A stretch of DNA of 64,000 nt from Nocardioides marmorisolisilvae. Lineage in GTDB: Bacteria; Actinomycetota; Actinomycetes; Propionibacteriales; Nocardioidaceae. The notes below the pieces were generated by a model. It was not told where the DNA came from. It made no database searches and worked only from the letters and a program-made list of their open reading frames with translations. Below are positions 14,606 through 31,533 of the stretch, piece by piece (positions within the stretch are counted from its first letter, which is position 1; each line of letters opens with the position of its first letter). The translations under genes and the position numbers were made by a program. The stretch is taken from the NCBI RefSeq assembly GCF_003725775.1, contig NZ_RJSG01000001.1, forward strand, positions 588,746 through 652,745, written 5' to 3'.

Positions 14606-15790
14606 GTGAGCAGACTCCAGGTCGCGGCGCGGGCCAACGTCCCGCCCTTCCACGTGATGGACCTGCTCGCTGCCGCCCAGGCGCGTCAGGCCAGCCACGG
14701 CGACCTGGTGAACTTCGTCGCCGGCCAGCCCTCGACCGGGGCGCCCAAGGCCGTCCGCGCCGAAGCCGTGCGGCTTCTGGAGGAGGACCTGCTCGGCTAC
14801 AGCGTGGCCACCGGCATCCCCGAGCTGCGCACCGCGATCGCCGAGCACCACCGCACGGCATCCGGCATCGACGTCGGCGCCGATGACGTCGTGGTGACCA
14901 CCGGGTCCTCGGGCGGCTTCCTGCTCGCCTTCCTGGCGGCGTTCTCGCCCGGCGACCGGGTGGTGATGGCCCGGCCGGGCTACCCCTGCTACCGCAACGT
15001 GCTCACCGCGCTGGGTTGTGAGGTCGTCGAGATCGACTGCGGTCCCGAGACCCGGTTCCAGCCGACAGTCGAGCTCCTCGAAGCGGTGCCCGGTCCGGTC
15101 GCGGGCCTGGTGATCGCCTCGCCCGCGAACCCGACCGGCACGATGATCCCGGCCGAGGAGCTGGCCGCGCTGGCTGCGTGGTGCGAGCAGAACGGCGTCC
15201 GGCTGATCTCCGACGAGATCTACCACGGCATCACCTACGGGGTTTCGGCCAGCCCAACCAGTACGGAATCCGGGACGTCCAGCGCGTGGCAGACCTCGCG
15301 CACCGGGGTCATCTTCGGGTCGTTCTCGAAGTACTTCTCGATGACCGGCTGGCGGCTCGGCTGGATGGTCGTCCCCGAGGACCTGCGCCGTCCGGTGGAC
15401 GTGCTGACCGGCAACTTCACGATCTGCCCGCCGGTGCTCTCGCAGTACGCCGCCCTCGCGGCGTTCACCCCCGACGCCTACGCCGAGCTCGACGGCCACG
15501 TGGCCCGCTACGCGCAGAACCGCTCGATCCTGCTCGACGGGCTGCCCCGTCTCGGCATCGACCGGCTCGCCCCGGCCGACGGCGCCTTCTACGTCTACGC
15601 CGACATCGGCCACCTCACCGATGACAGCTACGGCTGGTGCCAGCGGCTGCTCGCCGAGACCGGGGTGGCCATGGCGCCGGGTATCGACTTCGACACCCGT
15701 CGCGGCCACGAGTTCGTGCGGTTGTCGTTCGCCGGCACGGCAGCCGAGATCGAGCTCGGGCTGGACCGGCTGGCCGGTTGGCTGGCGTGA
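14606..15790 (+). CDS. PLP-dependent class I/II aminotransferase
   Basis: A 394-residue fold-type I aminotransferase. ASPANPTG binds PLP, DEIYHGITY carries the ring-contacting Asp and Tyr, and the Schiff-base Lys is in SFSKYFSMTGWRLGW. A GTG start lies 6 nt after TACCGT (14594-14599), so it is leaderless. After DEIYHGITYG comes a 14-16 residue Ser/Thr-rich insertion (VSASPTSTESGTS) that maps to a dispersed-repeat copy; relatives go straight from Tyr-Gly to the AWQTSR segment. The amino-acid substrate is unknown. The next gene overlaps its stop. Confidence 0.85.
   Translation: MSRLQVAARANVPPFHVMDLLAAAQARQASHGDLVNFVAGQPSTGAPKAVRAEAVRLLEEDLLGYSVATGIPELRTAIAEHHRTASGIDVGADDVVVTTGSSGGFLLAFLAAFSPGDRVVMARPGYPCYRNVLTALGCEVVEIDCGPETRFQPTVELLEAVPGPVAGLVIASPANPTGTMIPAEELAALAAWCEQNGVRLISDEIYHGITYGVSASPTSTESGTSSAWQTSRTGVIFGSFSKYFSMTGWRLGWMVVPEDLRRPVDVLTGNFTICPPVLSQYAALAAFTPDAYAELDGHVARYAQNRSILLDGLPRLGIDRLAPADGAFYVYADIGHLTDDSYGWCQRLLAETGVAMAPGIDFDTRRGHEFVRLSFAGTAAEIELGLDRLAGWLA
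15241..15260 (+). repeat. dispersed repeat copy inside aminotransferase
   Basis: ggtttcggccagcccaacca matches the intergenic 20-mer at 33481-33500 at 16 of 20 positions. It is in frame and encodes VSASPT within an extra loop of the aminotransferase. Confidence 0.5.
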
Positions 15791-16641
15791 GCGACCCCGC
15801 GATAGCCCGGGTCGCCGGGCTGGGCATCCACCCGGTCAAGAGCACCGCGATCCGCCCGGTCGAGCGCGCCACCGTGCACCCGTGGGGTCTGGCCGGGGAC
15901 CGGCGCTGGATGGTGGTGGACGCGGACGGGACCCTGGTGAGCGCCCGGGAGCTGCGCGAGCTGTTCCTGGTCACGGCCGACACCCCGGAGACCGAACCTG
16001 GCCTGGGCGCACCCCTGCGACTGCGCGCCCGCGGGTTCGACCCGATCGACGTCGTCGAGCCGGACACCGACCTGATCGACCTGCGGATGCACAGCAACGA
16101 CCTGCAGGGACGGCCCGCGGCCGAGAGCGCGAACACCTGGATCCGGGACGTCACCGGACGTCGGGACCTGCGGTTGATCTGGTGCGACGACCCGACCCGG
16201 CGCACGTTCGACCGCGACTGGGCGCTCCCGAGCGACCACGCGCCGTACACGGACAGCTGTCCGGTCACCCTGGCGTCGCTGTCGTCGCTGCGGCAGCTCA
16301 ACGACTGGATCGCGCAGGACGCCGTCGAACGCGGCGACGAACCGCCGGCGCCGCTGCCGATCGGACGCTTCCGCGCCAACGTCGTGGTCGACGGCGCCGA
16401 GGCGTTCGCCGAGGACGGCTGGGCACGGCTGCGCATCGGCGACGTCTGGTTCCGACAGCCCAAACGGGTCGACCGCTGTGTGATGACGACGATCTCGGCC
16501 ACCGACCTCAGCTCGACCAAGGAGCCGATCCGCACACTGGCCCGCTACCGGCTCGCGGACCAGAAGACCTGGTTCGCGGTGCACCTGGTCCCCGAGGGAC
16601 CCGGGACCATCGTGGTCGGCGACGAGGTCGTCGTCGACTGA
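15787..16641 (+). CDS. MOSC-domain protein (YcbX/mARC-like)
   Basis: A 284-residue protein with an N-terminal MOSC beta-barrel (VAGLGIHPVKSTAIRPVERATVHPWGLAGDRRWMVVD) and a MOSC domain. DRCVMTTI carries the Cys that ligates molybdenum in mARC/YcbX enzymes, which reduce N-hydroxylated compounds. The GTG start overlaps the aminotransferase stop (GTGA), so the pair is coupled. No [2Fe-2S] ferredoxin domain is fused at the C-terminus, so a separate electron donor would be needed. Confidence 0.82.
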   Translation: MSDPAIARVAGLGIHPVKSTAIRPVERATVHPWGLAGDRRWMVVDADGTLVSARELRELFLVTADTPETEPGLGAPLRLRARGFDPIDVVEPDTDLIDLRMHSNDLQGRPAAESANTWIRDVTGRRDLRLIWCDDPTRRTFDRDWALPSDHAPYTDSCPVTLASLSSLRQLNDWIAQDAVERGDEPPAPLPIGRFRANVVVDGAEAFAEDGWARLRIGDVWFRQPKRVDRCVMTTISATDLSSTKEPIRTLARYRLADQKTWFAVHLVPEGPGTIVVGDEVVVD

Positions 16642-17697
16642 TCAGCGACCGTGGTGCCGGCGCAACGGCACCTTGGTGGCCAGGTCGCGCAGATAGGCGG
16701 AGAGGTTCATCCGCAGCGCGGCCCGCGAGGTGAACAACAGCAGCGCCTGCTCGCGGCGCTCGGCCTTGGTCTCGGTGCGCGTGGGAGCCGCCGCGGCGCG
16801 GACGGCGGTCGTCGACGACGAAGTAGCGGTGGAGCCGGCCGGGACGATGCGCTTCGCGGTCCTCGGGGCACCGGCGCCGCCGACGCCGCCGTTCCAGCTC
16901 AGGCGCGTGAAGCAGTAGCCGCGAGCTCGGGCGCGCTTCACCACGATCGGGACGGCCGCGAGCGACGCCGGGGAGTTGTCGACCCCGTCGTGCTGGAGGA
17001 CGAGGTTGGTCCGGTGCGGGCGGAGCGAGTCGAGGATCCGCGCGGCGATCGTCGAGGAGCCGCCGCCGGCCCAGTCGCGGGAGTCGATGGTCCACAGCAC
17101 CGGGATCAGCCCGGCGTCGCGGATGACCTTGCGGACCCGTCCGTTGATGGCCCCGTACGGCGGCCGCATCAGGTGCGACACCGCGATGTGGTGGTGCCGG
17201 AACGCTGCGGCCGTGGCGTGCAGCTGGTGACGGATCTGCTTGGCGGTCAGGTCGGTCATCACCGGGTGGTTCCAGGTGTGGTTGCCGATCGTGAAGCCGT
17301 GGCTCGCGACGTACCGGGCCAGTGCCGGGTGGGCGTCGACGTGCTCACCGATCATGAAGAAGGTCGCGGGCACCTTGAGCTTCAGCAGGGTCCGGACCAG
17401 CTTCGCGGTCACGGCGGGGTTGGGGCCGTCGTCGAAGGTCAGGGCGATCTGGCCGGCGCGGCACGAGCCGCTGCTCGCGTTCCGGGCGACGGCGGTCCGC
17501 ACGGCCGCGTTCCCGTCCACCGGCGTGGTGGCCACGCGCGCGTGCACCGGCTTCACGACAGCCACCGGACGCAGGGCGACAGGGCGCTTCGCGGCGTGCG
17601 ACGGCTGCTCGGCGGGTGCGACGGAGACGAACGCCAGCCCGAGCAGCACGCAGGCAGCGAGAAGTCCGGAGGCCCATGCAGGGGTGAAACGGCCCAT
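16642..17697 (-). CDS. secreted polysaccharide deacetylase (CE4, NodB)
   Basis: A 351-residue protein with a signal peptide (residues 1 to about 36). The NodB domain starts near residue 82: TFDDGPN gives the catalytic base and a metal Asp, HTWNH gives the two metal His, and MRPPYG and the LQHDG segment are also present. A basic, Thr/Ala-rich C-terminal tail of about 90 residues follows and may bind wall polymers. It removes acetyl groups from peptidoglycan or another wall glycan outside the cell. It lies directly downstream of a TetR gene in the same orientation. Confidence 0.9.
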   Translation of the reverse strand: MGRFTPAWASGLLAACVLLGLAFVSVAPAEQPSHAAKRPVALRPVAVVKPVHARVATTPVDGNAAVRTAVARNASSGSCRAGQIALTFDDGPNPAVTAKLVRTLLKLKVPATFFMIGEHVDAHPALARYVASHGFTIGNHTWNHPVMTDLTAKQIRHQLHATAAAFRHHHIAVSHLMRPPYGAINGRVRKVIRDAGLIPVLWTIDSRDWAGGGSSTIAARILDSLRPHRTNLVLQHDGVDNSPASLAAVPIVVKRARARGYCFTRLSWNGGVGGAGAPRTAKRIVPAGSTATSSSTTAVRAAAAPTRTETKAERREQALLLFTSRAALRMNLSAYLRDLATKVPLRRHHGR

Positions 17698-19593: not shown

Positions 19594-20340
19594 CTACTTC
19601 TTCGACAGGAACGCGAGCATCGCGTCCTTGGCCTCGTCGGAGGAGAACAGCTGGGCGCTGAGCGCGATCATGTCGTCGGCGTGCTGCTCGAGGTAGGCGA
19701 GCATGTCGCGAGACAGGATCTTCTTGGTCTCGCGGAGCCCCTGCGGGTGCGCCTTGAGCAGCTCGGCGCAGGCGGCGTCGACCGCCGCGTCCAGCTCGGC
19801 CGCCGGCACCGCTCGGGTGACCAGGCCCATCGCGGCGGCCTCGGCGGCGTCGAAGGTCCGGCCCGAGAGGAACACGTCGTACGCCGCCCGGCTGGTCAGC
19901 CGCGGCATCAGCGTCAGCGAGATCACCGCCGGCGCCAGCGCCAACCGCGACTCGGTGAGGGCGAAGGTGACGTCGTCGCCGCAGATGACCAGGTCGCTGG
20001 ACGCGACGATGCCCAGGCCACCGGCTCGGACCGGACCACCGAGCCGGGTGACGATCGGCTTCGGGAAGGTGAGGATGTTCCGCTGGAGCTCGACGAGTGC
20101 GCCCGCTCCCTCGGTCATCGACCCGGACGCCGCCTCGGAGAGGTCCGCCCCGGAGCAGAAGACCCGGTCGGCCGACCGCAGCACGACCACCCGGACGTCG
20201 TCGTCGGCAGCCGCCTCCTCGAGCCGCTCGAACAGCTCGGAGATCAGCTGGCGTGACAGCGCGTTCCGGTTGTGCGGTGAGTCCAGGGTGATGGTGCCGA
20301 CGCCGTTCTCGGCGCTGTAGTGGACCAGTTCGTCAGTCAT
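19594..20340 (-). CDS. enoyl-CoA hydratase/isomerase family protein
   Basis: A 248-residue crotonase-fold enzyme. FCSGADLSEAASG and GGPVRAGGLGIVASSD supply the oxyanion-hole amides; TESRLALAP carries the likely catalytic Glu, while the first Glu of classical hydratases is not evident. It is last in the operon with acyl-CoA dehydrogenase and the biotin carboxylase subunits. This set is used in leucine (Liu) and acyclic terpene (Atu) catabolism, where the hydratase adds water to the carboxylated glutaconyl-CoA intermediate. Confidence 0.87.
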   Translation of the reverse strand: MTDELVHYSAENGVGTITLDSPHNRNALSRQLISELFERLEEAAADDDVRVVVLRSADRVFCSGADLSEAASGSMTEGAGALVELQRNILTFPKPIVTRLGGPVRAGGLGIVASSDLVICGDDVTFALTESRLALAPAVISLTLMPRLTSRAAYDVFLSGRTFDAAEAAAMGLVTRAVPAAELDAAVDAACAELLKAHPQGLRETKKILSRDMLAYLEQHADDMIALSAQLFSSDEAKDAMLAFLSKK

Positions 20341-20362
20341 GCGTGCTCCTTGCGGAGATCGG

Positions 20363-21529
20363 CTAGTAGGACTTGGGCAGGCCGAGCGAGTGCATGGCCA
20401 CGAAGTTCAGGATCATCTCGCGGCTCACCGGGGCGATCCGACCGAGGCGGGCAGCGATCAGCAGGTTGCCCAGACCGTACTCCGAGGCCAGGCCGTTGCC
20501 GCCGTGGGTGTGCACCGCGGTGTCCAGGGCGTTGCAGGCGACCTCGCCGCCGGCGTACTTGGCCATGTTGGCGAACTCGCCGGCACCGGCGTCGTCGCCG
20601 GCGTCGTACAGCGCCGCGGCCTTCTGCATCACCAGGCGGGACATCTCCAGCTCGATCTTCACCTTGGCCAGCGGGTGCGCGATGCCCTGGTGGGTCCCGA
20701 TGACGTCCTTCCAGACCTGGCGGGTCTTGGCGTAGTCGACCGCCTTCTCCAGGGCGTACCGGGCCATGCCGTTCGAGAACGCGGCGCCCATGATCCGCTC
20801 CGGGTTCAGGCCGGCGAACAGCTGCCAGATGCCGCCGTCCTCGTCCCCGACCAGCGCGTCGGCCGGCAGCCGGACGTCGTCGATGAACACCTGGAACTGC
20901 TTCTCGGGCGCGTGGAAGTCCATCGGGATGTGCTGCCAGGTCAGGCCCTTGGCGTCGGTCGGCACCAGGAACAGCGCCGGCTTCAGCTTGCCAGTCTTGG
21001 CATCGGCGGTGCGCGAGACGATCAGCACCACGTCGGCCTCGTCGATACCGGAGATGAACACCTTCTGGCCCTTGAGCACCCACTCGTCGCCGTCCTTGGT
21101 GGCGGTGGTGGTGATCAGGTGGCTGTTCGACCCGGCGTCCGGCTCGGTGATGGCGAACGCGGCGATCGTCGAGCCGTCCGCGATGCCCGGCAGCCAGCGC
21201 TGCTTCTGCTCCTCGGTGCCGCAGCGGGTGATGATCGTGCCGACGATCGCCGGGCTGACGACCATCATCAGCAGCGGGGCACCCGCCGCGGCCGCCTCCT
21301 CGAGCACGGCCGAGAGATCGCCCATGCCGCCGCCACCGCCGCCGTACTCCTCGGGGATGTTCACGCCGAGGAAGCCGTGCTTGCCCATGTCCTGCCAGAG
21401 CTCGGTGAGCTTCTCGCCCTGGGTGGTCTTCTCCGCCACGTAGGTGTGCCCGTAGCTGCCGGCGAGCTTGGCGACGGCCTCGCGCAGGGCGGTCCGCTCG
21501 TCCGGCTCGGTGAAGGCGGTGGTGCTCAT
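20363..21529 (-). CDS. acyl-CoA dehydrogenase
   Basis: A 388-residue flavoenzyme with the ACD signatures AFAITEPDAGSNSH (FAD/substrate) and THGGNGLASEYGLGNLLIAARLGRIAP near the C-terminus. It introduces the alpha-beta double bond into an acyl-CoA and passes electrons to ETF. The start overlaps the stop of the carboxylase alpha gene (4 bp), and the hydratase follows 22 bp later. In Atu/Liu pathways the dehydrogenase makes the substrate for the carboxylase. The chain specificity cannot be read here. Confidence 0.9.
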   Translation of the reverse strand: MSTTAFTEPDERTALREAVAKLAGSYGHTYVAEKTTQGEKLTELWQDMGKHGFLGVNIPEEYGGGGGGMGDLSAVLEEAAAAGAPLLMMVVSPAIVGTIITRCGTEEQKQRWLPGIADGSTIAAFAITEPDAGSNSHLITTTATKDGDEWVLKGQKVFISGIDEADVVLIVSRTADAKTGKLKPALFLVPTDAKGLTWQHIPMDFHAPEKQFQVFIDDVRLPADALVGDEDGGIWQLFAGLNPERIMGAAFSNGMARYALEKAVDYAKTRQVWKDVIGTHQGIAHPLAKVKIELEMSRLVMQKAAALYDAGDDAGAGEFANMAKYAGGEVACNALDTAVHTHGGNGLASEYGLGNLLIAARLGRIAPVSREMILNFVAMHSLGLPKSY

Positions 21530-23490
21530 TCGGTTGACTCCTCGTCGGTCGAAACCACAGCGAGCACGTCGCCCGCTGCTACCTGCTGGCCCACGGTGAC
21601 GGCGATCTCGACGATGCCGTCGCCCGGGGCGTTGATCGAGTGCTGCATCTTCATCGCCTCGAGCACGAGCAAGGTCTGCCCGCTCTCGACGGCGGAGCCG
21701 TTCTCGGCCTGGACGGCGATCACGGTGCCGGGCATCGGCGCCAGCAGCGAGCCGGCACTGACCTGCTCGGCCGGGTCGACGAAGCGCGGGACGGCACGGA
21801 AGCTGGCCGAGCCTCGTCCTGAGTCGACGTGCACGACATCCCCGCTGCCGCCGATCCGGTACGACGCCTGCACGCCGTCCACGACCAGCACGACCTGCTC
21901 GGTGCTCGCCTCGAGGACCTCGAGTCCGTCGACCTGGTAGCCGTCGCGCCCGCCGAACCAGTCGACGCTGACCTCCTCACCACCGGCGGTGGCGAGCACG
22001 GTGCGCTGCGGCTGGGAGACCACGTTGCGCCAGGCGACCGGGATCGCCTGCTGGACGACGCGGGCCGCACGGTCGCGCTCGGCGAGCGCGACCGCCGCGG
22101 CCACCGCGGGGCCACGCAGGTCGGGGGCATCCCCGGCGAGGTCGTAGCTGCCCAGGAAGTCGGTGCTGACCTCACCGGCGAGCACCTTCTCGTCCCGGAG
22201 CAGCCGGACCAGCAGGTCGCGGTTGGTGACCAGGCCGTGGATCCGGGACCGCTCGAGCAGGCCGGCCAGGGTGCGGAACGCGGAGGTGCGGTCCGGGCCC
22301 CAGGCGATCACCTTGGCGAGCATCGCGTCGTAATGGGTGCTCACCTCGCTGCCGGAGACGAACCCCGAGTGCAGCCGGGTGCCGTGCAGCGCCAGCTGCT
22401 CGAAGCCGCCGTCCGCCGGGATCTCGAAGGTGTCCAGGCGTCCGCTCTGCGGATGGTAATCGGCGGCCGGGTCCTCGGCGTACAGGCGCACCTCGACGGC
22501 ATGACCGCGCGGGTGCGACGGCGCGCTCGGGACCTCCCCGCCCTCGGCCACGCGGATCTGGGCCTCCACCAGGTCGATGCCGAAGACCGCCTCGGTGACC
22601 GGGTGCTCGACCTGGAGCCGGGTGTTCATCTCCAGGAAGGAGACTCGATCGCCGGACACCATGAACTCGACCGTTCCGGCACCGACGTAGCCGATGGCGA
22701 GCGCAGCGAGCCGAGCGCCGTCGTGAAGACGCTCCTGCACTCCCTCAGGCAGGAACGGCGCCGGTGCCTCCTCGACGACCTTCTGGTGACGACGCTGGAG
22801 CGAGCAGTCCCGCTCGCCGAGAACCAGCACGTTCCCGTGGGTGTCCCCGACGACCTGGACCTCGACGTGCCGTCCGTTCTCCAGGTACGGCTCGCAGAAG
22901 ACCGTCGGATCGCCGAACGCCGAGGCTGCCTCGTCGCTGGCGAGCTTGACCTGGTCGGCGAGCTCCGCGAGGTCGCGGACGATGCGCATGCCGCGCCCGC
23001 CGCCACCGGCGCTGGCCTTCACCAGGATCGGCAGGTCCGCCTCGGTGACCGCGGCCGGGTCCAGCTCGGCGAACACCGGGACGCCGGCATCGCCCATCAG
23101 CTTCTTGGCAGCGACCTTCGAACCCATCGCGTCGATCGACTCGGGGGTCGGACCGATCCAGGTCAGACCGGCCTCGAGGACCGCGCGCGCGAAGCCCGCG
23201 TTCTCCGACAGGAAGCCGTAGCCGGGGTGGATCGCGTCCGCGCCCGCCTTCTTCGCGGCCTCGATGATCAGGTCAGCCCGCAGGTAGGTCTCGGCCGGGG
23301 TGTTCCCGGGCAGCCGGACGGCGAGGTCGGCCTCGGCGACGAAGGGCAGCCCGGCGTCGGCGTCGGAGAACACCGCGACGGTGCCGATCCCGAGACGGCG
23401 GGCGGTGGTGAAGACGCGGCGTGCGATCTCGCCGCGGTTGGCGACGAGGATGCGGTTGATGGTCGTCATCTCTCCAGTCATTCCTGGCAT
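21526..23490 (-). CDS. acyl-CoA carboxylase alpha subunit (biotin carboxylase + BCCP)
   Basis: About 654 residues: biotin carboxylase (ILVANRGEIARR; ATP-grasp KASAGGGGRGMR; EMNTRLQVEHPVTE), a linker domain, and a C-terminal biotinyl domain with the biotin Lys in VLEAMKMQHS. It carboxylates biotin with ATP and bicarbonate and works with the adjacent beta subunit. The ATG at 23490 overlaps the upstream stop (TGATG). In-frame ATGs at 23481 and 23469 are alternatives, the last aligning best with relatives. Methylcrotonyl- or geranyl-CoA carboxylase is the likely class, given the hydratase and AtuA-family neighbours. Confidence 0.9.
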   Translation of the reverse strand: MPGMTGEMTTINRILVANRGEIARRVFTTARRLGIGTVAVFSDADAGLPFVAEADLAVRLPGNTPAETYLRADLIIEAAKKAGADAIHPGYGFLSENAGFARAVLEAGLTWIGPTPESIDAMGSKVAAKKLMGDAGVPVFAELDPAAVTEADLPILVKASAGGGGRGMRIVRDLAELADQVKLASDEAASAFGDPTVFCEPYLENGRHVEVQVVGDTHGNVLVLGERDCSLQRRHQKVVEEAPAPFLPEGVQERLHDGARLAALAIGYVGAGTVEFMVSGDRVSFLEMNTRLQVEHPVTEAVFGIDLVEAQIRVAEGGEVPSAPSHPRGHAVEVRLYAEDPAADYHPQSGRLDTFEIPADGGFEQLALHGTRLHSGFVSGSEVSTHYDAMLAKVIAWGPDRTSAFRTLAGLLERSRIHGLVTNRDLLVRLLRDEKVLAGEVSTDFLGSYDLAGDAPDLRGPAVAAAVALAERDRAARVVQQAIPVAWRNVVSQPQRTVLATAGGEEVSVDWFGGRDGYQVDGLEVLEASTEQVVLVVDGVQASYRIGGSGDVVHVDSGRGSASFRAVPRFVDPAEQVSAGSLLAPMPGTVIAVQAENGSAVESGQTLLVLEAMKMQHSINAPGDGIVEIAVTVGQQVAAGDVLAVVSTDEESTE

Positions 23491-25097
23491 CACATCCGGA
23501 AGACACCGAAGCGGTCGGTGCCTTCGATCGGGTTGTTGGCGATCACGGAGAGGCAGATGCCGAGCACCGTGCGGGTGTCGCGTGGATCGATCACGCCGTC
23601 GTCGTAGACCATCCCGGAGAGGAAGAACGGCAGGCTCTGCTCCTCGATGCCGGCCTCGACGAAGCCGCGCATCGCGGCGTCGGCCTCCTCGTCGAACGGC
23701 TGTCCCTTCGCCTCGGCGGCCGCCCGGGACACGATGCTCAGCACGCCGGCCAGCTGGGCGGGGCCCATCACCGCCGACTTGGCGCTCGGCCAGGTGAACA
23801 GGAACCGCGGGTCGTAGGCACGACCGTTCATGCCGTAGTTGCCGGCACCGTAGGAGGCCCCCATGATCACCGAGATGTGCGGGACCCTCGAGTTGGAGAC
23901 CGCGTTGATCATCTGGGCGCCGTGCTTGATGATCCCGCCCTGCTCGTACTCCGCGCCGACCATGTAGCCGGTCGTGTTGTGCAGGAACAGCAGCGGGGTG
24001 TCGTTCTGGTTCGCGAGCTGGATGAACTGGGTCGCCTTGTTCGCCTCCTCGGAGAACAGCACGCCCTGGGCGTTGGCGAGGATGCCGACCGGGTGGCCGT
24101 GGATCCGCGCCCAGCCGGTCACCAGCGAGTTGCCGTAGAGCGGCTTGAACTCGTCGAAGACCGCGCCGTTGCCCGCGGAGCGCCCGTCGCAGATCCGGGC
24201 GATCACGTCGCGCGGGTCGAACGGTTCCTTCAGGTCGGTCGGGATCAGGTCGAGCAGCTCACCGGCGTCGGCCTCGGGCTCGGCGAACGTCGTGTGGATC
24301 CGGCCGCCGTGGTCGGCCTTGCGGCGGTTGAGCCGCGCCACGATGCGCCGGCCGATCCGGATCGCGTCCTGCTCGTCCACCGCCAGGTAGTCGGCCAGGC
24401 CGGAGATCCGGGCGTGCATCTCGGCACCACCGAGCGACTCGTCGTCGGACTCCTCACCGGTGGCCATCTTCACCAGCGGCGGACCGCCGAGGAACACCTT
24501 GGCCTGCTCCTTCACGAAGACCGTGTAGTCGCTCATGCCGGGGATGTAGGCACCGCCGGCAGTCGAGTTGCCGAAGACCAGTGCGATGGTCGGCTGCTTT
24601 CGGGCGCTCGCCCGGGTCAGGTCGCGGAACATCTTGCCGCCGGGGATGAAGATGTCCTTCTGCGTCGGCAGGTCGGCGCCGCCGGACTCGACCAGCGAGA
24701 TCGTCGGCAGGTCGTTCTCCTCGGCGATCTGCGCCGCCCGGAATCCCTTCTTCAGGGTCCACGGGTTCGAGGCGCCACCCTTCACGGTCGGGTCGTTCGC
24801 GGTGATCATGCACTCGACACCTTCGACCACGCCGATACCGCAGACCACGCTCGCGCCGACGGTGAAGTCCGAGCCCCAGCCGGCCAGGGGCGAGAGCTCG
24901 AGGAATGCCGAGCCCGGGTCGATGAGCAGCTCGATGCGCTCGCGGGGCAGCAGCTTGCCGCGCTTGCGATGGCGCTCGATGCTGCGCTCGCCGCCTCCGG
25001 CGACGGCCAGCGCGTGCTGCTCGCCGAGATCGGACAGCTTGGCGAGCATCGCGTCACGGCGTCCGAGATCGGGCCCGCTCTCCTGGGTCTGGGTCAC
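23490..25097 (-). CDS. acyl-CoA carboxylase beta subunit (carboxyltransferase)
   Basis: A 535-residue carboxyltransferase with paired crotonase-like N and C domains (GGGERSIERHRKRGKLLPRERIE... NTTGYMVGAEYEQGGIIKHGAQM... MGASYGAGNYGM). This is the MccB/AtuC type that transfers CO2 to a gamma carbon of a branched enoyl-CoA. The GTG at 25097 is chosen because ggagg lies 8 nt upstream; a TTG at 25124 is less likely. It is first in the four-gene operon, behind the 28-bp promoter/operator shared with the TetR operon. Confidence 0.9.
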   Translation of the reverse strand: MTQTQESGPDLGRRDAMLAKLSDLGEQHALAVAGGGERSIERHRKRGKLLPRERIELLIDPGSAFLELSPLAGWGSDFTVGASVVCGIGVVEGVECMITANDPTVKGGASNPWTLKKGFRAAQIAEENDLPTISLVESGGADLPTQKDIFIPGGKMFRDLTRASARKQPTIALVFGNSTAGGAYIPGMSDYTVFVKEQAKVFLGGPPLVKMATGEESDDESLGGAEMHARISGLADYLAVDEQDAIRIGRRIVARLNRRKADHGGRIHTTFAEPEADAGELLDLIPTDLKEPFDPRDVIARICDGRSAGNGAVFDEFKPLYGNSLVTGWARIHGHPVGILANAQGVLFSEEANKATQFIQLANQNDTPLLFLHNTTGYMVGAEYEQGGIIKHGAQMINAVSNSRVPHISVIMGASYGAGNYGMNGRAYDPRFLFTWPSAKSAVMGPAQLAGVLSIVSRAAAEAKGQPFDEEADAAMRGFVEAGIEEQSLPFFLSGMVYDDGVIDPRDTRTVLGICLSVIANNPIEGTDRFGVFRM

Positions 25098-25115
25098 CCG
25101 TTCATCCTCCGGTCT

Positions 25116-25143
25116 CCGCAACAAACAGTCAAGACTGACTTTA
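25116..25143 (-). promoter_or_regulatory. carboxylase-operon promoter/operator (28-bp twin site 1)
   Basis: These 28 bp are identical to 30751-30778 upstream of the TetR gene. On the minus strand they hold a -10 TAAAGT (25143-25138), then the inverted repeat CAGTC-AA-GACTG (25126-25137) straddling the expected start of transcription. The leader to the GTG is about 35 nt with a strong SD. An operator over the start site fits repression by the TetR protein encoded at 30114. Confidence 0.85.
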
Positions 25144-25216
25144 TGTTGGAATGACTACTCGGATCGGGCGAAACGGTCGGTTGTGCACCGTTCTCCGGCG
25201 GTCCTACGCTGCGGCC

Positions 25217-26449
25217 ATGTCACGCCGTACGCCGGGAATCCTCGCCACCTTCGCGCTGATCGTCGCCGGGCTGGTCGCCCTCGGTGCCAGCACCGCTCCG
25301 CCGGCCCTCGGCGCGGAGCCGGTGGTTCCCTACTGCAGCGCCCCGGCAGCACCGCCGTGCATCGTGCGCCTGACCCGGGCTGCGGTGGACGTGGACCCCA
25401 ATCTCTACCGGGTCGTGTGGAACGAGAAGGCGCCGTCCTCGGGCTTCTACAGCTGGTACTTCGAGACCTTCACCGGTGGTGCGTGGCGGGCTGACATGAG
25501 CGCCGACGGCACCGACGAGACGACGCAGGTGTTCAAGCTCGTCCTCGACTTCGGAAGTTTCAATCCGGTGACCTATGCCGGCCAGGGCAGCTCGGACTTC
25601 GAGAACCCGGTGTACCGCAGCGTGGTCGACGGCCACTACCGGATCAGCATCACCGCCTCACCGATCAACCGCCTCACCGGGTGCGACTTCAACGTCGACC
25701 CGCCGAGCTGCCCGACGTACGGAACCGCCGACGACGACGTGGAGGGCTACCTCGACGGCGTGGTCAACGATGCGCGCTGGTTCGGGGAGACGGCCGCCGA
25801 GCACCGGATCATCGGCGGCTTCTCCGATCTCCACAACACCGAGTACACCGGCGGCCCTCCGGTGATCGTCACCGATCCAGTCACCGGCAGCAGCACCATG
25901 ACCTTCACGTTGCGCAACACCCACGCCTACGCGGACCACACCACCGTCTTCCACGGGAATCAGCAGCTGCGGCTGCCGAACAGCATGCTGCGCGAGGTGT
26001 ACGGGATCCCGGACCCCGACACGATGTCGCCTGGCAGCCTCGCGACCAGCCTGGGCGGAAGCGGCACCGGCACGATCACCGTGCACCCCGAGGCCGATCA
26101 CACCGGGGTGGTCGTCTACGTCACCGGCGTCACGTTCTCGACCCGGACCGTGCGGATCAAGCGCGGCATCATCGTCCCGCTCGCCCCGACGCACCTGTCG
26201 AGCTGGCGGATCAGCGCGGCCAGCGGCCGGATCTACTTCACGAAGGCCACCCCCCGCGGTTCCCGGGTGACCAGCTACCTGGCGCGCTGCCAGCACGGGA
26301 GCTCGGTGAAGACCGCGAACGGCTACAGCACCGGTGTCACCTTCTCCAACCTCGCCAGGAACACCTCGTACAGCTGCCGGGTAAGGGCCAGGTCGAAGGC
26401 CGGTTACGGACCGTGGAGCGCCCTGGTCCACCTCAACTCGGCGCCCTAG
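25217..26449 (+). CDS. secreted protein with C-terminal fibronectin type III-like domain
   Basis: A 410-residue exported protein. The ATG at 25217 follows TACGCT (25205-25210) by 6 nt (leaderless) and starts a clear signal peptide (MSRRTPGILATFALIVAGLVA...AEP). The middle is a Tyr/Asp/Thr-rich beta-type region with paired Cys. The last 90 residues (SSWRISAASGRIYFTKATPRGSRVTSYLARC... SYSCRVRARSKAGYGPWS) look like FN3. Function unknown. It is inserted between the two catabolic operons on the opposite strand and overlaps the convergent ACD gene by 4 bp (CTAG). Confidence 0.7.
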   Translation: MSRRTPGILATFALIVAGLVALGASTAPPALGAEPVVPYCSAPAAPPCIVRLTRAAVDVDPNLYRVVWNEKAPSSGFYSWYFETFTGGAWRADMSADGTDETTQVFKLVLDFGSFNPVTYAGQGSSDFENPVYRSVVDGHYRISITASPINRLTGCDFNVDPPSCPTYGTADDDVEGYLDGVVNDARWFGETAAEHRIIGGFSDLHNTEYTGGPPVIVTDPVTGSSTMTFTLRNTHAYADHTTVFHGNQQLRLPNSMLREVYGIPDPDTMSPGSLATSLGGSGTGTITVHPEADHTGVVVYVTGVTFSTRTVRIKRGIIVPLAPTHLSSWRISAASGRIYFTKATPRGSRVTSYLARCQHGSSVKTANGYSTGVTFSNLARNTSYSCRVRARSKAGYGPWSALVHLNSAP

Positions 26450-27588
26450 GAGGCGTAGCCGAGCAGCCGGGCCGCCAGGTCGGTGAGCACCTCGGTGGCA
26501 CCGCCGCCGATCGGCAGGATCCGGCTGTCCCGGTAGTGCCGCTCGACCTCGGTGCCGTGCATGTAGCCGGTGCCGCCGTGCAGCTGGACGGCCATGTCCA
26601 CGACTGCTTCGCACGCCTCGACCGCGGTCTGCTTGGCGAGGCAGGCCTCGGCGATCACGTTCTCGCCCGCGACGTGCCGCGCGATCACCTCGTGGGTGTA
26701 GCTGCGGGAGATCTCGACCAGGCGGCGCATCTCCACGAGCTTGTGGCGCACGACCTGGTTGGCGATGAGTGGCTTGCCGAACGTCTCGCGGTCACGGCAG
26801 TACTGCGCGGTGAGCTCGAGGGCGCGGCCGGCGACTCCGTAGCCGTGCACCGCGAGGCCGATCCGCTCGACGACGAACTGCTCGGCGATGTAGTAGAAGC
26901 CCTGGTTCTCCTCACCCACCAGGTTCGAGGCCGGGACCCGTACGTCGACGTACGAGAGCTCGGCGGTGTCCGAGCAGTGCCAGCCCATCTTCTGGAGCGA
27001 ACGGTCGACGGTGAAGCCGGGCGTGCCCTTGTCGACGACGATCAGCGAGAGGCCTGCGTGGCCCGGACCGCCGGTGCGGACGGCCGTGGTCACGAAGTCC
27101 GCGCGCACGCCTGAGGTGATGAAGGTCTTGGCACCGTTGATCACGTAGTGGTCGCCGTCGCGGACCGCGGTCGTGGTGATGCCGGCGACGTCCGAGCCGC
27201 CGTTCGGCTCGGTCACGCCGAGCGAGCCGATCAGGTCACCCGCCAGCGTCGGCCGCACGTAGGTGTCGATGAGCTCGGCGCTGCCGTTGGCGACGATGTG
27301 CGGCAGCGCGATGCCGTGGGTGAAGAGCCCGGCCATCAGCCCGGACGACGCCCCGGCGGCGAAGAACGCCTCCTGCATCGCGGTCGCGTCGGCGAGGTCA
27401 CCGCCGTCGCCCCCGGCTTCCTCCGGGAAGCCGAGCGCCAGCAGGCCGCCCTTCGCTGCGGCCTGGTGCAGCGCGCGCGGGATCTCGCCGCTGTCCTCCC
27501 AGTCCTGGAGGTGCGGGGTGATCTCGCGCTCGACGAAGGTGCGGGTGCTCGCCTGCAGGGCGAGCCGTTCCTCGGTGTAGAAAGTCAC
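26446..27588 (-). CDS. acyl-CoA dehydrogenase
   Basis: A 380-residue ACD. Signatures are GVTEPNGGSDVAGI and LHGGTGYMHGTEVERHYRDSRILPIGGGATEV; the catalytic Glu of the main ACD group lies in HGTEVERHYRD or its neighbourhood. The GTG start at 27588 overlaps the AtuA-family stop (GTGA), discarding a longer open frame. It belongs to the TetR-TIGR03084-AtuA operon. With the second ACD at 20363 there are two dehydrogenases for the predicted pathway, as with citronellyl-CoA and shorter intermediates in Atu. Confidence 0.9.
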   Translation of the reverse strand: MTFYTEERLALQASTRTFVEREITPHLQDWEDSGEIPRALHQAAAKGGLLALGFPEEAGGDGGDLADATAMQEAFFAAGASSGLMAGLFTHGIALPHIVANGSAELIDTYVRPTLAGDLIGSLGVTEPNGGSDVAGITTTAVRDGDHYVINGAKTFITSGVRADFVTTAVRTGGPGHAGLSLIVVDKGTPGFTVDRSLQKMGWHCSDTAELSYVDVRVPASNLVGEENQGFYYIAEQFVVERIGLAVHGYGVAGRALELTAQYCRDRETFGKPLIANQVVRHKLVEMRRLVEISRSYTHEVIARHVAGENVIAEACLAKQTAVEACEAVVDMAVQLHGGTGYMHGTEVERHYRDSRILPIGGGATEVLTDLAARLLGYAS

Positions 27589-29306
27589 AGCAGCTCCTCG
27601 GGGATGTGCACGTGCCGGGAGCGCAACCACTCGCCGACGGCCTTGGCCTGGGGGTCGAAGCGGGTGCTCGCGGCGACGCCGTCGCCGAGCAGTCCGCGGA
27701 TGAGCACGTTGACGCCGCCGAGGTTCGGCAGCGGGTAGACCTCGACGGGCAGGTCCTTCGTCTCGGGGAGCAGCTGGCGGATCGCGTCCGGTGTGATCAG
27801 CCGGAGCAGCCAGCCGACCCGCTGGTCGCGTAGCTCGGAGTTCTCTCCGCCGACCCAGAGCCCGACGTTGGCGTCACCGCCCTTGTCGCCCGAACGCGCG
27901 TGCACGAAGGTGCCGAGCGGCAGGTTCACCGCCGGCGCGTCCTCGGCCGGACCGATCGGGTCGACCGGATCCGCCTCCACCTCGGCACCGGGCGGCACGC
28001 GCGTCGCACCCACCGGCTGCGGGATCTCGATCGTGGTGCCGTCCCACAGGTGCACGGTCTCGGTCACCTCGTCGCGGGCGACGTACTCCGGCCGGTAGAT
28101 CCCGTACGGCGAACCGCGACCCGGAGGTGCGGTCAGGGTGAAGCCCGGGTAGGAGGCCAGCGCCAGCTCGACGGCCGCGGCGGTGAAGTTCTTGCCGACC
28201 ACGTCGGCCGAGGGGTCCTTGACCGTGACCCGCAGCAAGCAGGAAGCGCCTTCCTCGGTGTCGGCGTCCGCGACCGGGAGCGCTCCGCGCGACCAGGTGA
28301 TCGACGCCGGCGGGTTGCTCGCGAGCCGGGCGTCGAGCTGGGTGCGGATCCAGGCCTCCTTGGCGTCGATGTCCAACCCGGTGAGCACGAACTCCATCTG
28401 GTTGCGCATGCCGCCGAGCTCGTTGACGCAGACCTTGAGCTGCTCGGGCGACTCGGAGCCCCGGATGCCGCTGACCCGGACCCGGTCAGGCCCGTCCGCG
28501 GCCAGGCGGATGGATGCCAGGTCGGTGGTCACGTCGGGGCCGAGGTAGAGCGTCGACTGGATCTCGTAGACCAGCTGCGCGGTGACGGTGTCGACCGAGA
28601 CCACGCCGCCCGTGCCGGCGGGCTTGGTGACCACGAACGACCCGTCGGCGTCGACCTCCGCGAGCGGGAAGCCCAGCGGGGTCGCATCGCGCGGCAGGTC
28701 GAGGAAGCCGGAGAAGTTGCCCCCGGTCGCCTGCGTGCCGCACTCGATGATGTGGCCCGCGACCACGGCGCCGGCCAGCTCGTCGTACGAGGTCGGGGTC
28801 CAGCCGTGGTGCGCGATCGCGGGACCGACGACGACCGAGGCGTCGGTGACCCGCCCGGTCACCACGATGTCGGCGCCCTCGGTCAGCGCCCGGGCGATCC
28901 CGAACGCACCGAGGTAGGCGTTCGCGGTGAGCGCCCCGGTGAAGCCGAGCTCGGCGGCGCGCGGCGCCAGGTTGTCGCCGTCGACCCAGGCGATCTTCGG
29001 GCTCAGCCCGAGCCCGCCCGCGACCTCCTCGAGCTTGGCCGCCAGGCCGGCGGGGTTGAGGCCGCCGGCGTTCGCGACGATCTTCACGCCCTGCTCGAGC
29101 GCGAGACCGAGGCCGTCGGCGATCTGGGCGACGAAGGTGCGCGCGTAGCCGAGCGTCGGGTCCTTCAGCTGGTCCTTGCCGAGGATGAGCATGGTCAGCT
29201 CGGCCAGGTAGTCACCGGTGAGGTAGTCGAGCTCGCCGTGCTCCAGCATCTCCCGCATCGCGGTGAGCCGGTCGCCGTAGAAGCCGGAGCAGTTGCCGAT
29301 CCGCAC
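27585..29306 (-). CDS. AtuA-family protein (acyclic terpene utilization, DUF1446)
   Basis: A 573-residue protein: DUF1446 domain (VRIGNCSGFYGDRLTAMREML... NAGGLNPAGLAAKLEEVA... VVTGRVTDASVV) followed by a C-terminal ferredoxin-fold segment with the hallmark FVHARSGDKGGDANVGLW. AtuA is required for growth of Pseudomonas on citronellol/geraniol, but its reaction is not established as far as I know. The start GTG at 29306 lies 4 nt after the upstream stop. Its operon partners (TIGR03084, ACD, TetR) and the linked carboxylase operon make a terpenoid acyl-CoA pathway the best reading. Confidence 0.88.
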   Translation of the reverse strand: MRIGNCSGFYGDRLTAMREMLEHGELDYLTGDYLAELTMLILGKDQLKDPTLGYARTFVAQIADGLGLALEQGVKIVANAGGLNPAGLAAKLEEVAGGLGLSPKIAWVDGDNLAPRAAELGFTGALTANAYLGAFGIARALTEGADIVVTGRVTDASVVVGPAIAHHGWTPTSYDELAGAVVAGHIIECGTQATGGNFSGFLDLPRDATPLGFPLAEVDADGSFVVTKPAGTGGVVSVDTVTAQLVYEIQSTLYLGPDVTTDLASIRLAADGPDRVRVSGIRGSESPEQLKVCVNELGGMRNQMEFVLTGLDIDAKEAWIRTQLDARLASNPPASITWSRGALPVADADTEEGASCLLRVTVKDPSADVVGKNFTAAAVELALASYPGFTLTAPPGRGSPYGIYRPEYVARDEVTETVHLWDGTTIEIPQPVGATRVPPGAEVEADPVDPIGPAEDAPAVNLPLGTFVHARSGDKGGDANVGLWVGGENSELRDQRVGWLLRLITPDAIRQLLPETKDLPVEVYPLPNLGGVNVLIRGLLGDGVAASTRFDPQAKAVGEWLRSRHVHIPEELL

Positions 29307-29310
29307 AGTC

Positions 29311-30117
29311 CTAGCCAACGCTCGGCGCCCGTCCCTCGCCCGACGGACCGGCGAACGCCTGCGCGATGTCGAGCCAGGCGTTGGCGTCCTCGCCGACCGC
29401 GACCAGGTCGAGGTCGTCACGGTGGCGACGCTGGGTCACCAGCAGGCAGAAGTCGTACGCCGACCCGGTGACGGTCTGCGCCGCGTCCTCGGGACCCCAG
29501 CTCCACTGCTCGCCGGACGGGGAGACCAGGTCGATCCGGAACTCCTCCGTCGGCGGCTCGAGGCCGCGGTTCACGTAGGCGTAGTTGCGGGTCCGCACGC
29601 CCAGGTGCGCGACGTGCTTGAGCCGGTCGGTCGGTTCGAGGCTGACGCCGAGCGCGTCGGCGACGTCGAGGGCGTGCGCCCAGGTCTCCATGAACCGAGC
29701 GGTACCCATCGAGGCCGGGCTCATCGGCGGCCCGTACCAGGGCAGCTTCTGACCCTCGGGGTAGTCACGCAGCATCGTCACCAGTGCCGGGCGACCGGCC
29801 TGCCAGCGGGCCAGGATCTCCGCGGCGCTCGCCTTCGCGCCCGCAAACGCCTCGGCGTCGACGAACCCGTTCGGGTCGTCGAAGGCCTTGAGCACCAGCG
29901 CGTCCCAGGCCTCCTTGTCGGTGCCTGCGGCGATCGCGCACTCGTCGGTCCAGGCGAGGTGCACGATCGTGGTCGCGATGTCCCAGCCCTCGGCCGGGGT
30001 CATCCGGCGCCAGCCGGCCTCGTCCAGCCCGACGACGAGCGCCTCCAGGGCGTCACCCTCCGCGGCCAGGTCGGCGAGCACCTGCTCGAGCACTGCGCTT
30101 CTCGACGGCTCAGTCAT
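29311..30117 (-). CDS. TIGR03084-family DinB-like metal-binding protein
   Basis: A 268-residue protein with an N-terminal DinB/mycothiol-maleylpyruvate-isomerase-like bundle. Conserved His (TIVHLAWTDE) and WAHALDVADALG give a possible metal site, and a C-terminal domain follows. The TIGR03084 family recurs next to AtuA-family and acyl-CoA genes in actinobacteria. A mycothiol-dependent isomerisation or thiol adduct step is an inference from the fold. The ATG overlaps the TetR stop (ATGA). Confidence 0.8.
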   Translation of the reverse strand: MTEPSRSAVLEQVLADLAAEGDALEALVVGLDEAGWRRMTPAEGWDIATTIVHLAWTDECAIAAGTDKEAWDALVLKAFDDPNGFVDAEAFAGAKASAAEILARWQAGRPALVTMLRDYPEGQKLPWYGPPMSPASMGTARFMETWAHALDVADALGVSLEPTDRLKHVAHLGVRTRNYAYVNRGLEPPTEEFRIDLVSPSGEQWSWGPEDAAQTVTGSAYDFCLLVTQRRHRDDLDLVAVGEDANAWLDIAQAFAGPSGEGRAPSVG

Positions 30118-30731
30118 GGGTTCTCCTTGTTCCTGCGGGGAAGTTCGTCCTCCAGCACGGCGGCCCAGCGGTCCAGGATCCGTGCCCGGCGCGCGTCGTC
30201 GTTGCTGATCGTGTTGGCGAGTCCGAGACCGCGGATCAGGTCGAGGGTCGCCTGCACCAGCTCGCGGGCGCCGGGCTGGGACTCGTCGGCGTCGAGCATC
30301 TCGACGGTGAGCTTGTGGGTCTCGCGGCCGGTGACCCGTTCGAACGGGACCAGCGCGGCCAGCAGCGCCTCGTCGCTCCGGGCCGCCACCCAGAGGTCGA
30401 GAGCGGCGGCGAAGACGTCGGAGGTGAAGTGCTCACCGAGCATCTGCAGCACCGCGCGGGTGCGCCCCGGCCCTTCCGGGAGTGCGGCGGCGGCTGCGGA
30501 GAGCTCGTCGCGTCGGACCCCGGCCAGGTGCTCGACCGCGGCGACCACGAGGTCGTTCTTGGTCGGGAAGTGGTGCAGCTGGGCACCGCGGCTGACGCCG
30601 GCGACCTGCGAGATCAGCGTGGTCGACGTGCCGCTCCAGCCGTGCTCGGCGAGGCACTGCACGGTCGCCTCGAGCAGCCGCTGCCGCATGGCACGCGTCC
30701 GCTCCTCCTGCGGCACCCGGATGGTCGTCAC
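30114..30731 (-). CDS. TetR-family regulator of the acyl-CoA/Atu-like regulon
   Basis: A 205-residue TetR protein (HTH: SGTSTTLISQVAGVSRGAQLHHFPTKNDLVVAAV). The start is set at a GTG (30731), giving VTTIRVPQEERTRAMRQ; a longer TTG frame would run into the operator. It is first in its operon, so it is self-regulated. The same 28-bp element lies before the carboxylase operon, which makes that operon its second target. An acyl-CoA or terpenoid-CoA is a likely inducer by analogy with AtuR/LiuR-type regulators. Confidence 0.88.
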   Translation of the reverse strand: MTTIRVPQEERTRAMRQRLLEATVQCLAEHGWSGTSTTLISQVAGVSRGAQLHHFPTKNDLVVAAVEHLAGVRRDELSAAAAALPEGPGRTRAVLQMLGEHFTSDVFAAALDLWVAARSDEALLAALVPFERVTGRETHKLTVEMLDADESQPGARELVQATLDLIRGLGLANTISNDDARRARILDRWAAVLEDELPRRNKENP

Positions 30732-30750
30732 GACGTCATCGTGTCCCCCG

Positions 30751-30778
30751 CCGCAACAAACAGTCAAGACTGACTTTA
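30751..30778 (-). promoter_or_regulatory. TetR-operon promoter/operator (28-bp twin site 2)
   Basis: Identical over 28 bp to 25116-25143. The minus-strand -10 TAAAGT (30778-30773) precedes CAGTC-AA-GACTG (30761-30772); the expected leader to the GTG at 30731 is about 35 nt. Sequence outside the 28 bp differs, so identity is confined to the regulatory core. Confidence 0.85.
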
Positions 30779-30864
30779 AGTTCTTCGCGTTTCTGTGGAG
30801 AGCTCCGGTGCAGGCGGGGTAGCTCCCCTAGGGTCTGGCGTACCCGGCTCTTGGAGGATCCTCG

Positions 30865-31533
30865 GTGTCCGACCCCAACGCTCCCTACCCGCCCCACGAT
30901 CCCACGCAGGGATACCCGCCACCGGCGTACCCGCCGCCGCCCCCGGCATCTCCGCTGCCGCCGAGGTTCGAGCACCCGCAGGCTCCGCCCGTACCGCCGG
31001 CCGGCTCCGACCCGACGTGGGGTGGCCAGCCGCCGTACACCTACGGGCAGCCGGAGCCCGAGCCCTACGCGAGCTGGGGACGGCGGGTGGCCGCGACGCT
31101 GCTCGACACCCTCATCCTGCTGCCGGGCTACGTGGTGATCGTGATCGGCAACGTGCTCGTCAGCGACTCGATCGTGAAGAACCCGGACGGCACGGCCAGC
31201 GTGACCGACGGCGCGAACCTGGGCCTCGGCCTCGCGCTCGCCGGGATTGCGGGCTTGGCCACGCTCATCTTCAGCATCTGGAACCAGATCTTCCGCCAGG
31301 GACGTCGCGGCGCGACCCTCGGCAAGCAGATGATGGGCATCCTGGTGATCAGCGAGGAGAACGCCCGGCCGATCGGGGCGGCCCTGACCTTCGTCCGCTC
31401 CATCGTGCACTTCCTGGACGCCATCTCCTGCTACATCGGCTACCTGTGGCCGCTGTGGGACCCGAAGAAGCAGACCTTCGCGGACAAGATCATGAAGACC
31501 GCGGTGCTGCACCTGCCCGACGTCCGGTTCTGA
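30865..31533 (+). CDS. RDD-family membrane protein with proline-rich N-terminus
   Basis: A 222-residue protein: residues 1-70 are Pro/Tyr-rich (YPPHDPTQGYPPPAYPP...), followed by an RDD domain. WGRRVAATLLDTLILLPGY carries the Arg and Asp for which the family is named; a GATLGKQMMGI segment and three predicted helices follow. RDD proteins are membrane proteins of uncertain function, sometimes linked to ion transport. The GTG start has a clear SD (ggagga, 7 nt). The next gene is more than 100 bp away with its own control region. Confidence 0.85.
   Translation: MSDPNAPYPPHDPTQGYPPPAYPPPPPASPLPPRFEHPQAPPVPPAGSDPTWGGQPPYTYGQPEPEPYASWGRRVAATLLDTLILLPGYVVIVIGNVLVSDSIVKNPDGTASVTDGANLGLGLALAGIAGLATLIFSIWNQIFRQGRRGATLGKQMMGILVISEENARPIGAALTFVRSIVHFLDAISCYIGYLWPLWDPKKQTFADKIMKTAVLHLPDVRF

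Follow-up and report, generated by a model that had tools for sequence, protein, structure and literature searches.

The 64,000-nucleotide stretch of Nocardioides marmorisolisilvae DNA analysed here (the window) carries, at 19594–30778, genes for a TetR-family regulator and a set of acyl-CoA-degrading enzymes, together with two copies of a 28-bp element. We interpret these as one TetR-repressed catabolic operon that was split by an insertion and came back under common control through a second copy of its operator, with chemistry resembling that of the Pseudomonas Atu system; we put the probability of this reading at about 0.7. The regulon is real, being one operon with a duplicated operator, and against known systems it appears to be a variant arrangement of an Atu-like set. 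This conserved set probably serves the breakdown of branched, terpene-like acids.

The two copies, at 30751–30778 before tetR and 25116–25143 before the carboxylase beta gene (both minus strand), are identical over 28 bp, as an earlier note on this DNA had reported, with 97% identity over 32 bp. The genome holds just these two: the 12-mer CAGTCAAGACTG has exactly two sites in 3.83 Mb (control hits, 0), and a 21-mer of the element gave no third site with up to three mismatches allowed. Relatives (the best 80 of 353 loci from an AtuA scan, mostly Nocardioides) have the element before tetR in 73 of 73 eligible loci, i.e. the 81 loci including the window minus six without a tetR match and two with too little upstream sequence; compared with CAGKCTTGACTG, 67 show no mismatch, five show one and one shows two. 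Identity and conservation together are the basis for calling copy 1 an operator. The conserved stretch is some 27 bp long, A.WAAAAGTCAGGCTTGACTGTTTGTT, with conservation near zero upstream. The conserved dyad inside it is AGTCA-N4-TGACT, flanked by the outer arms AACAAAC/GTTTGTT, of which the left is degenerate. Its centre lies 2 bp off that of CAGTC-AA-GACTG, the inverted repeat proposed earlier, which is not a conserved dyad because the fourth base of its CAGTC arm (gene strand) varies among 72 relatives (G in 61, T in 10, A in one). The proposed −10, TAAAGT, fared no better: its first base is T in 13 of the 72 relatives and A in 59. No conserved −35 lies upstream of the element in these relatives, and a promoter scan of 24900–31000 returned no sigma-70-type site.

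The region had been described as two linked operons; in relatives it is one. The order tetR, TIGR03084, atuA, acyl-CoA dehydrogenase 2 (ACAD2), beta, alpha, acyl-CoA dehydrogenase 1 (ACAD1) occurs in 63 of the 65 loci that span 18 kb or more, the window among them, the two exceptions, L043 and L048, being without ACAD2 in place. Along the gene strand the window reads element, tetR, TIGR03084, atuA, ACAD2, an opposite-strand gene, element, beta, alpha, ACAD1, hydratase. The inserted gene (about 25217–26449, plus strand, start codon inferred) encodes an fn3 protein (PF00041) with an apparent signal peptide, judged by eye; its homologues are distant (26–33% identity) and come from 6 of the 60 other genomes of the family that were searched. 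In the nearest relatives (L005–L010) the gap between ACAD2 and beta is 9–63 bp, with no room for the fn3 gene and no second element. Because the two genes adjoin there, we regard the window's 'two operons' as one broken operon. Over the 71 relatives with a measurable gap (9 of the 80 being left out), it is ≤140 bp in 34, 227–290 bp in two, 441–600 bp in 30 and >600 bp in five. The loci with gaps of 441–600 bp have no second element. Four of these gaps were read for open reading frames (ORFs): L021 and L033 contain a same-strand gene resembling a protein of about 156 aa that L043 encodes, on the same strand, between atuA/ACAD2 and beta (Polyketide_cyc2, SRPBCC-type, by Pfam), and the gaps of L017 and L074 contain no such SRPBCC-type ORF. 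The L083 operon is lengthened by an extra same-strand dehydrogenase. Operons lengthened by same-strand genes of either kind carry no second copy before beta.

Across 1.555 Mb, 81 matches to the element (≤2 mismatches) comprised 72 before tetR, two before beta (the window and L058), two before atuA (L067 and L082) and five on the opposite strand, these last being tetR operators read on the other strand; a reversed control gave 0. L058 is broken by an opposite-strand ion-channel gene, and in L082 atuA lies apart from tetR-TIGR03084; L067 begins too close to a contig end for tetR to show. The downstream part of each of the three broken operons (window, L058, L082) thus has its own copy. With three events at most, this is suggestive that operator copies accompany operon breaks, not proof of it. 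Copy 2 abuts the fn3 gene, and one might take the 28-bp repeat for a mobile or structural element that arrived with that gene and has no part in regulation. We give this next to no weight, since the element precedes tetR in every eligible locus, stands only before tetR, beta or atuA among the 81 loci, and has a copy in L058, whose insert is unrelated. The site was present in 105 of 149 family genomes and occurred twice in four (G000, G047, G090 and G102; control, 0). A wider regulon was rejected, as 101 of the 105 have a single site. Near-perfect dyads were noted before a thiolase/crotonase-like fusion, read by eye (L164:5593, G047), and at other genes (L162:5395, G090), and on a cut contig of G102 (L163) the site precedes a partial hydratase of 64% identity. 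Copy 2 lies between divergent genes (25143–25217), so that the fn3 gene could also come under TetR.

The TetR (30114–30731, minus strand, 205 aa, GTG start, start codon inferred; PF00440) has the recognition helix SRGAQLHHF, as found in 72 of 74 near TetRs; one reads SRGAQVHHF and one was not covered. Among 26 far matches, three (L144, L165 and L166) read SRGAQLHH(F/Y) and are accompanied by the GACTG element with 0, 2 and 2 mismatches respectively. A further 22 read SRGA(A/T)QHHF; upstream of the first gene of the operon, 22 of 22 show a GCTTG-type half-site, a count that is descriptive because the pattern was written after viewing the same upstream regions. A stricter dyad pattern fits 19 of the 22, and random windows gave 71 (stricter, 63) of 4000. 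The L158 regulator (TWGVIQYHF, 32% identity) was taken for a different TetR. Recognition helix and operator change together. The claim that one TetR serves both units is well supported by the conserved operator, the copies in three broken operons and this covariation. We infer, with good support, that TetR binds AGTCA-N4-TGACT as an autorepressor, the operator lying before its own gene in 73 of 73 loci, and that it represses both halves. InbR was considered as a lead and led nowhere.

The carboxylase beta subunit (23490–25097, minus strand, start codon inferred; PF01039) has a pocket of the geranyl-CoA carboxylase (GCC) type. According to the excerpted text of PMC4673880, beta subunits of methylcrotonyl-CoA carboxylase (MCC) have Phe after a three-residue insertion and those of GCC have Gly. 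With residues matched by sequence alignment, the near beta sequences (73 relatives and the window) all lack the insertion and have Gly (74/74); the insertion is also absent from all 38 far sequences, of which 35 have Gly and three Ala (L123, L158, L159). Comparison by sequence with Pseudomonas Atu covered the GCC beta alone (5ikl; a 100-residue comparison and a score). The alpha subunit (21526–23466, minus strand, start approximate) combines biotin carboxylase, BT and biotin carboxyl carrier protein regions (PF00289, PF02786, PF02785, PF21139, PF00364). Its match to PF21139, the MCC-alpha BT domain (33.4 bits, cut-off 31), the higher whole-chain score of beta against MCC beta (516.8 bits) than GCC beta (462 bits) and the overlap of gene types with the Liu pathway would suit a second operon for leucine/isovalerate (methylcrotonyl-CoA), under a BkaR-like regulator. 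That reading is improbable: the Phe191-type residue and insertion are absent from the pocket and present in a paralogue in the same genome (L086), which has beside it a biotin carboxylase, its own TetR (SACE_7040 family) and a hydroxymethylglutaryl-CoA lyase scoring 347.6 bits against a cut-off of 246. No such lyase was identified in the operon, which has AtuA in its place. BkaR identity was rejected because that regulator's operator, GTTA(N)T(N4)A(N)TAAC in the portion of PMC3920632 consulted, differs in sequence. Clustering of the carboxylase with plain MccB, which the earlier note named, together with lack of induction by terpenoids, as an outcome that would refute its reading, is favoured by the whole-chain score and opposed by the specificity site and the separate MCC.

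AtuA (27585–29306, minus strand, start codon inferred; PF07287 and PF23544 domains) matches the full PF07287 profile at 488.4 bits, as expected of the AtuA of Atu systems. Searches of the PDB with the single sequence or a narrow profile gave nothing useful; a broader profile revealed the fold shared with citramalate lyase CmlA (9erq, 16% identity). The earlier note's statement that AtuA has no assigned reaction needs qualification: an acetate-lyase role has been proposed for it (excerpts of PMC4847356 and PMC9973270), although one review credits that step to LiuE, and the PDB contains a family member under the name citramalate lyase. The TIGR03084 metal-binding protein (29311–30117, minus strand) had no match by sequence search but has the fold of mycothiol-dependent maleylpyruvate isomerase (MDMPI) over its full length, and its invariant His-Glu-His triad, H53/E144/H148, fits H52/E144/H148 of 2nsf at 13% identity. 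H52 comes from the title of 2nsg, and the triads were compared by residue position. The genome has an MshA gene, and on the strength of fold and metal triad alone the TIGR03084 step may be mycothiol-linked. TIGR03084 and ACAD2 also occur as a pair in L209 and L210, where the stretch holds neither atuA nor a carboxylase gene, hinting that the two act together. The enoyl-CoA hydratase of the crotonase family (19594–20340, minus strand; PF00378, 155.9 bits) scores 282.1 bits against NF005879, just below the cut-off of 283, and 122.8 bits against the gamma-carboxygeranoyl-CoA hydratase model NF004227 (cut-off 426), which makes it a candidate at most for the isohexenyl-glutaconyl-CoA hydratase (AtuE) of the Atu system. 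The dehydrogenases ACAD2 (26446–27588) and ACAD1 (20363–21529), both on the minus strand, each match PF00441, PF02770 and PF02771. Profile matches thus bear out the gene content given in the earlier note. A cytochrome P450 gene (18369–19592, plus strand) adjoins the hydratase on the opposite strand, with no operon link shown.

These assignments are consistent with a pathway in which TetR would keep both halves repressed and be released by an acyl-CoA or by an intermediate formed later. The dehydrogenases would yield a 3-methyl-2-enoyl-CoA that carries a long or branched tail and whose E and Z forms TIGR03084 may interconvert with mycothiol. The biotin carboxylase would carboxylate the gamma methyl, the crotonase would hydrate the product, and AtuA, as a citramalate-lyase-type enzyme, would release acetate from the tertiary 3-hydroxy-3-alkylglutaryl-CoA, leaving a 3-oxoacyl-CoA destined for beta-oxidation. 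Any 3-methylcrotonyl-CoA formed further down would pass to the separate Liu cluster. TIGR03084 could instead be a mycothiol S-transferase or a detoxifier of reactive enoyl or epoxy intermediates, which we find possible though somewhat doubtful. The terpenoid substrate and the inducing ligand are predicted ones. DSF, for comparison, is a branched enoic acid. A considerable possibility, if still short of an even chance, is that the same chemistry acts not on plant monoterpenes but on other 3-methyl-branched acyl-CoAs (isoprenoid lipid tails, methyl-branched fatty acids, fragments of rubber or of sterol side chains). In its favour, the gene set occurs in actinobacteria of varied sources, and no dehydrogenase for terpene alcohols or aldehydes was identified among the operon proteins. 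In the Streptomyces-like locus L140 an additional AMP-ligase-like gene (15673–17265, by eye) separates ACAD1 from the hydratase, and Pseudomonas nitroreducens degrades DSF through an atu-like cluster (excerpt of PMC9973270). On the other side, only the open pocket speaks to chain length.

Besides the whole-chain score of beta, several observations weigh against the split, Atu-like operon that we favour. No acyl-CoA ligase or alcohol/aldehyde dehydrogenase was identified among the operon proteins to point to an entry substrate. Only 10 of 63 ordered loci have the hydratase no more than 400 bp from the operon, and none of 30 hydratase loci read, unlinked ones included, has the element within 400 bp upstream, so that the hydratase was mostly rejected as a separate regulon member. 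TIGR03084 is missing from 38 of 179 AtuA genomes, a count that assumes that the two scans drew the same 344 genomes (the handles agree, as far as genomes without a match were listed). AtuA-family genes occur without a carboxylase in the stretch fetched (L125, L126, L216, L219–L222), and AtuA alone is consequently no sign of carboxylation. The review that credits the acetate-lyase step to LiuE (PMC4097962, in part) does so in place of AtuA. Finally, G047 and G090 each have an additional site of similar sequence beside other genes, and in G080 a site lies in the TIGR03084-atuA gap of about 150 bp, with the position of tetR outside the view, so that not every copy goes with a visible break.

The likeness to Pseudomonas atuRABCDEFGH lies in the classes of protein (AtuA, biotin carboxylase alpha and beta, acyl-CoA dehydrogenase, crotonase, TetR repressor) and in the GCC-type pocket residues; unlike it, this operon adds TIGR03084 and has two dehydrogenases. 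AtuB, AtuG and AtuH (citronellol/citronellal dehydrogenases and ligase) have no counterpart among the operon proteins, the set searched, and we therefore class the system as Atu-like and not as Atu. The operator also differs from the two 13-bp inverted repeats of AtuR, AGCAAGCGCTTGG/CCAAGCGCTTGCT in the consulted part of PMC9973270; the GCTTG-type half-sites of other actinobacterial orthologues resemble AGCAAGCGCTTGG. The label 'Atu-like' is supported by the pocket and the AtuA fold, the system appearing Atu-like in chemistry and not Atu by its defining parts. Literature searches turned up no published account of the actinobacterial operator, but were poorly targeted and leave its absence unproven. 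The Liu pathway shares the carboxylation-hydration-lyase logic and differs in its MCC pocket and its hydroxymethylglutaryl-CoA lyase, its gene set lying elsewhere in this genome. In the mycobacterial BkaR regulon, too, an autorepressing TetR controls an acc-fadE operon that has repeated palindromic operators, but operator sequence and enzyme set are different.

The nine g31 loci (L127–L131, L147–L150), which we infer to be Mycobacterium, read AtuA-ACAD2-beta-alpha-ACAD1-ECH, the gene types and order of echA7-fadE12-accA2-accD2-fadE13-Rv0976c (Rv0971c–Rv0976c). Rv0975c is presumably fadE13 and Rv0976c, from its place in the order, AtuA. The match in order comes from published gene names and numbers (excerpts of PMC9283954 and PMC4564863), not from M. 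tuberculosis sequence. Rv0971c–Rv0976c is described as one operon in the former excerpt, and AccD2 as differing from MCC at the Phe segment in part of PMC4347857, which leaves the AccD2-AccA2 substrate open, as PMC9283954 repeats; neither 'geranyl' nor 'terpen' is present in the main text of PMC4347857. The nine loci have no linked tetR, TIGR03084 or element. Seven of them (L128, L130, L131, L147–L150) have a dyad like CTAACCTACCGGTTGGTTG upstream of atuA, suggesting a different regulator there. The predicted steps, regulator and operator make the AccD2-AccA2 substrate question testable. The gene set, or most of it, occurs in Nocardioidaceae, Nocardia and Tsukamurella and in genomes taken for Streptomyces, Gordonia, Pseudonocardiaceae and Mycobacterium, and hints at a function for enzymes of unknown role in related bacteria. 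The case also illustrates an insertion-broken operon whose orphaned half carries an operator copy, and a recognition-helix change tracking an operator change.

CmlA (9erq, 9evf) is named as a subunit A, whereas AtuA here is one chain with a PF23544 domain; the substrates differ, and ADP is bound in the CmlA structure. G301 has a second AtuA (53%) beside a second TIGR03084. In L218–L221 the AtuA family occurs as separate PF07287 and PF23544 genes, which adjoin citrate or tricarboxylate transporters in L219 and L221 and lie near carboxyltransferase, dehydrogenase and hydratase genes in the haloarchaeal L218.
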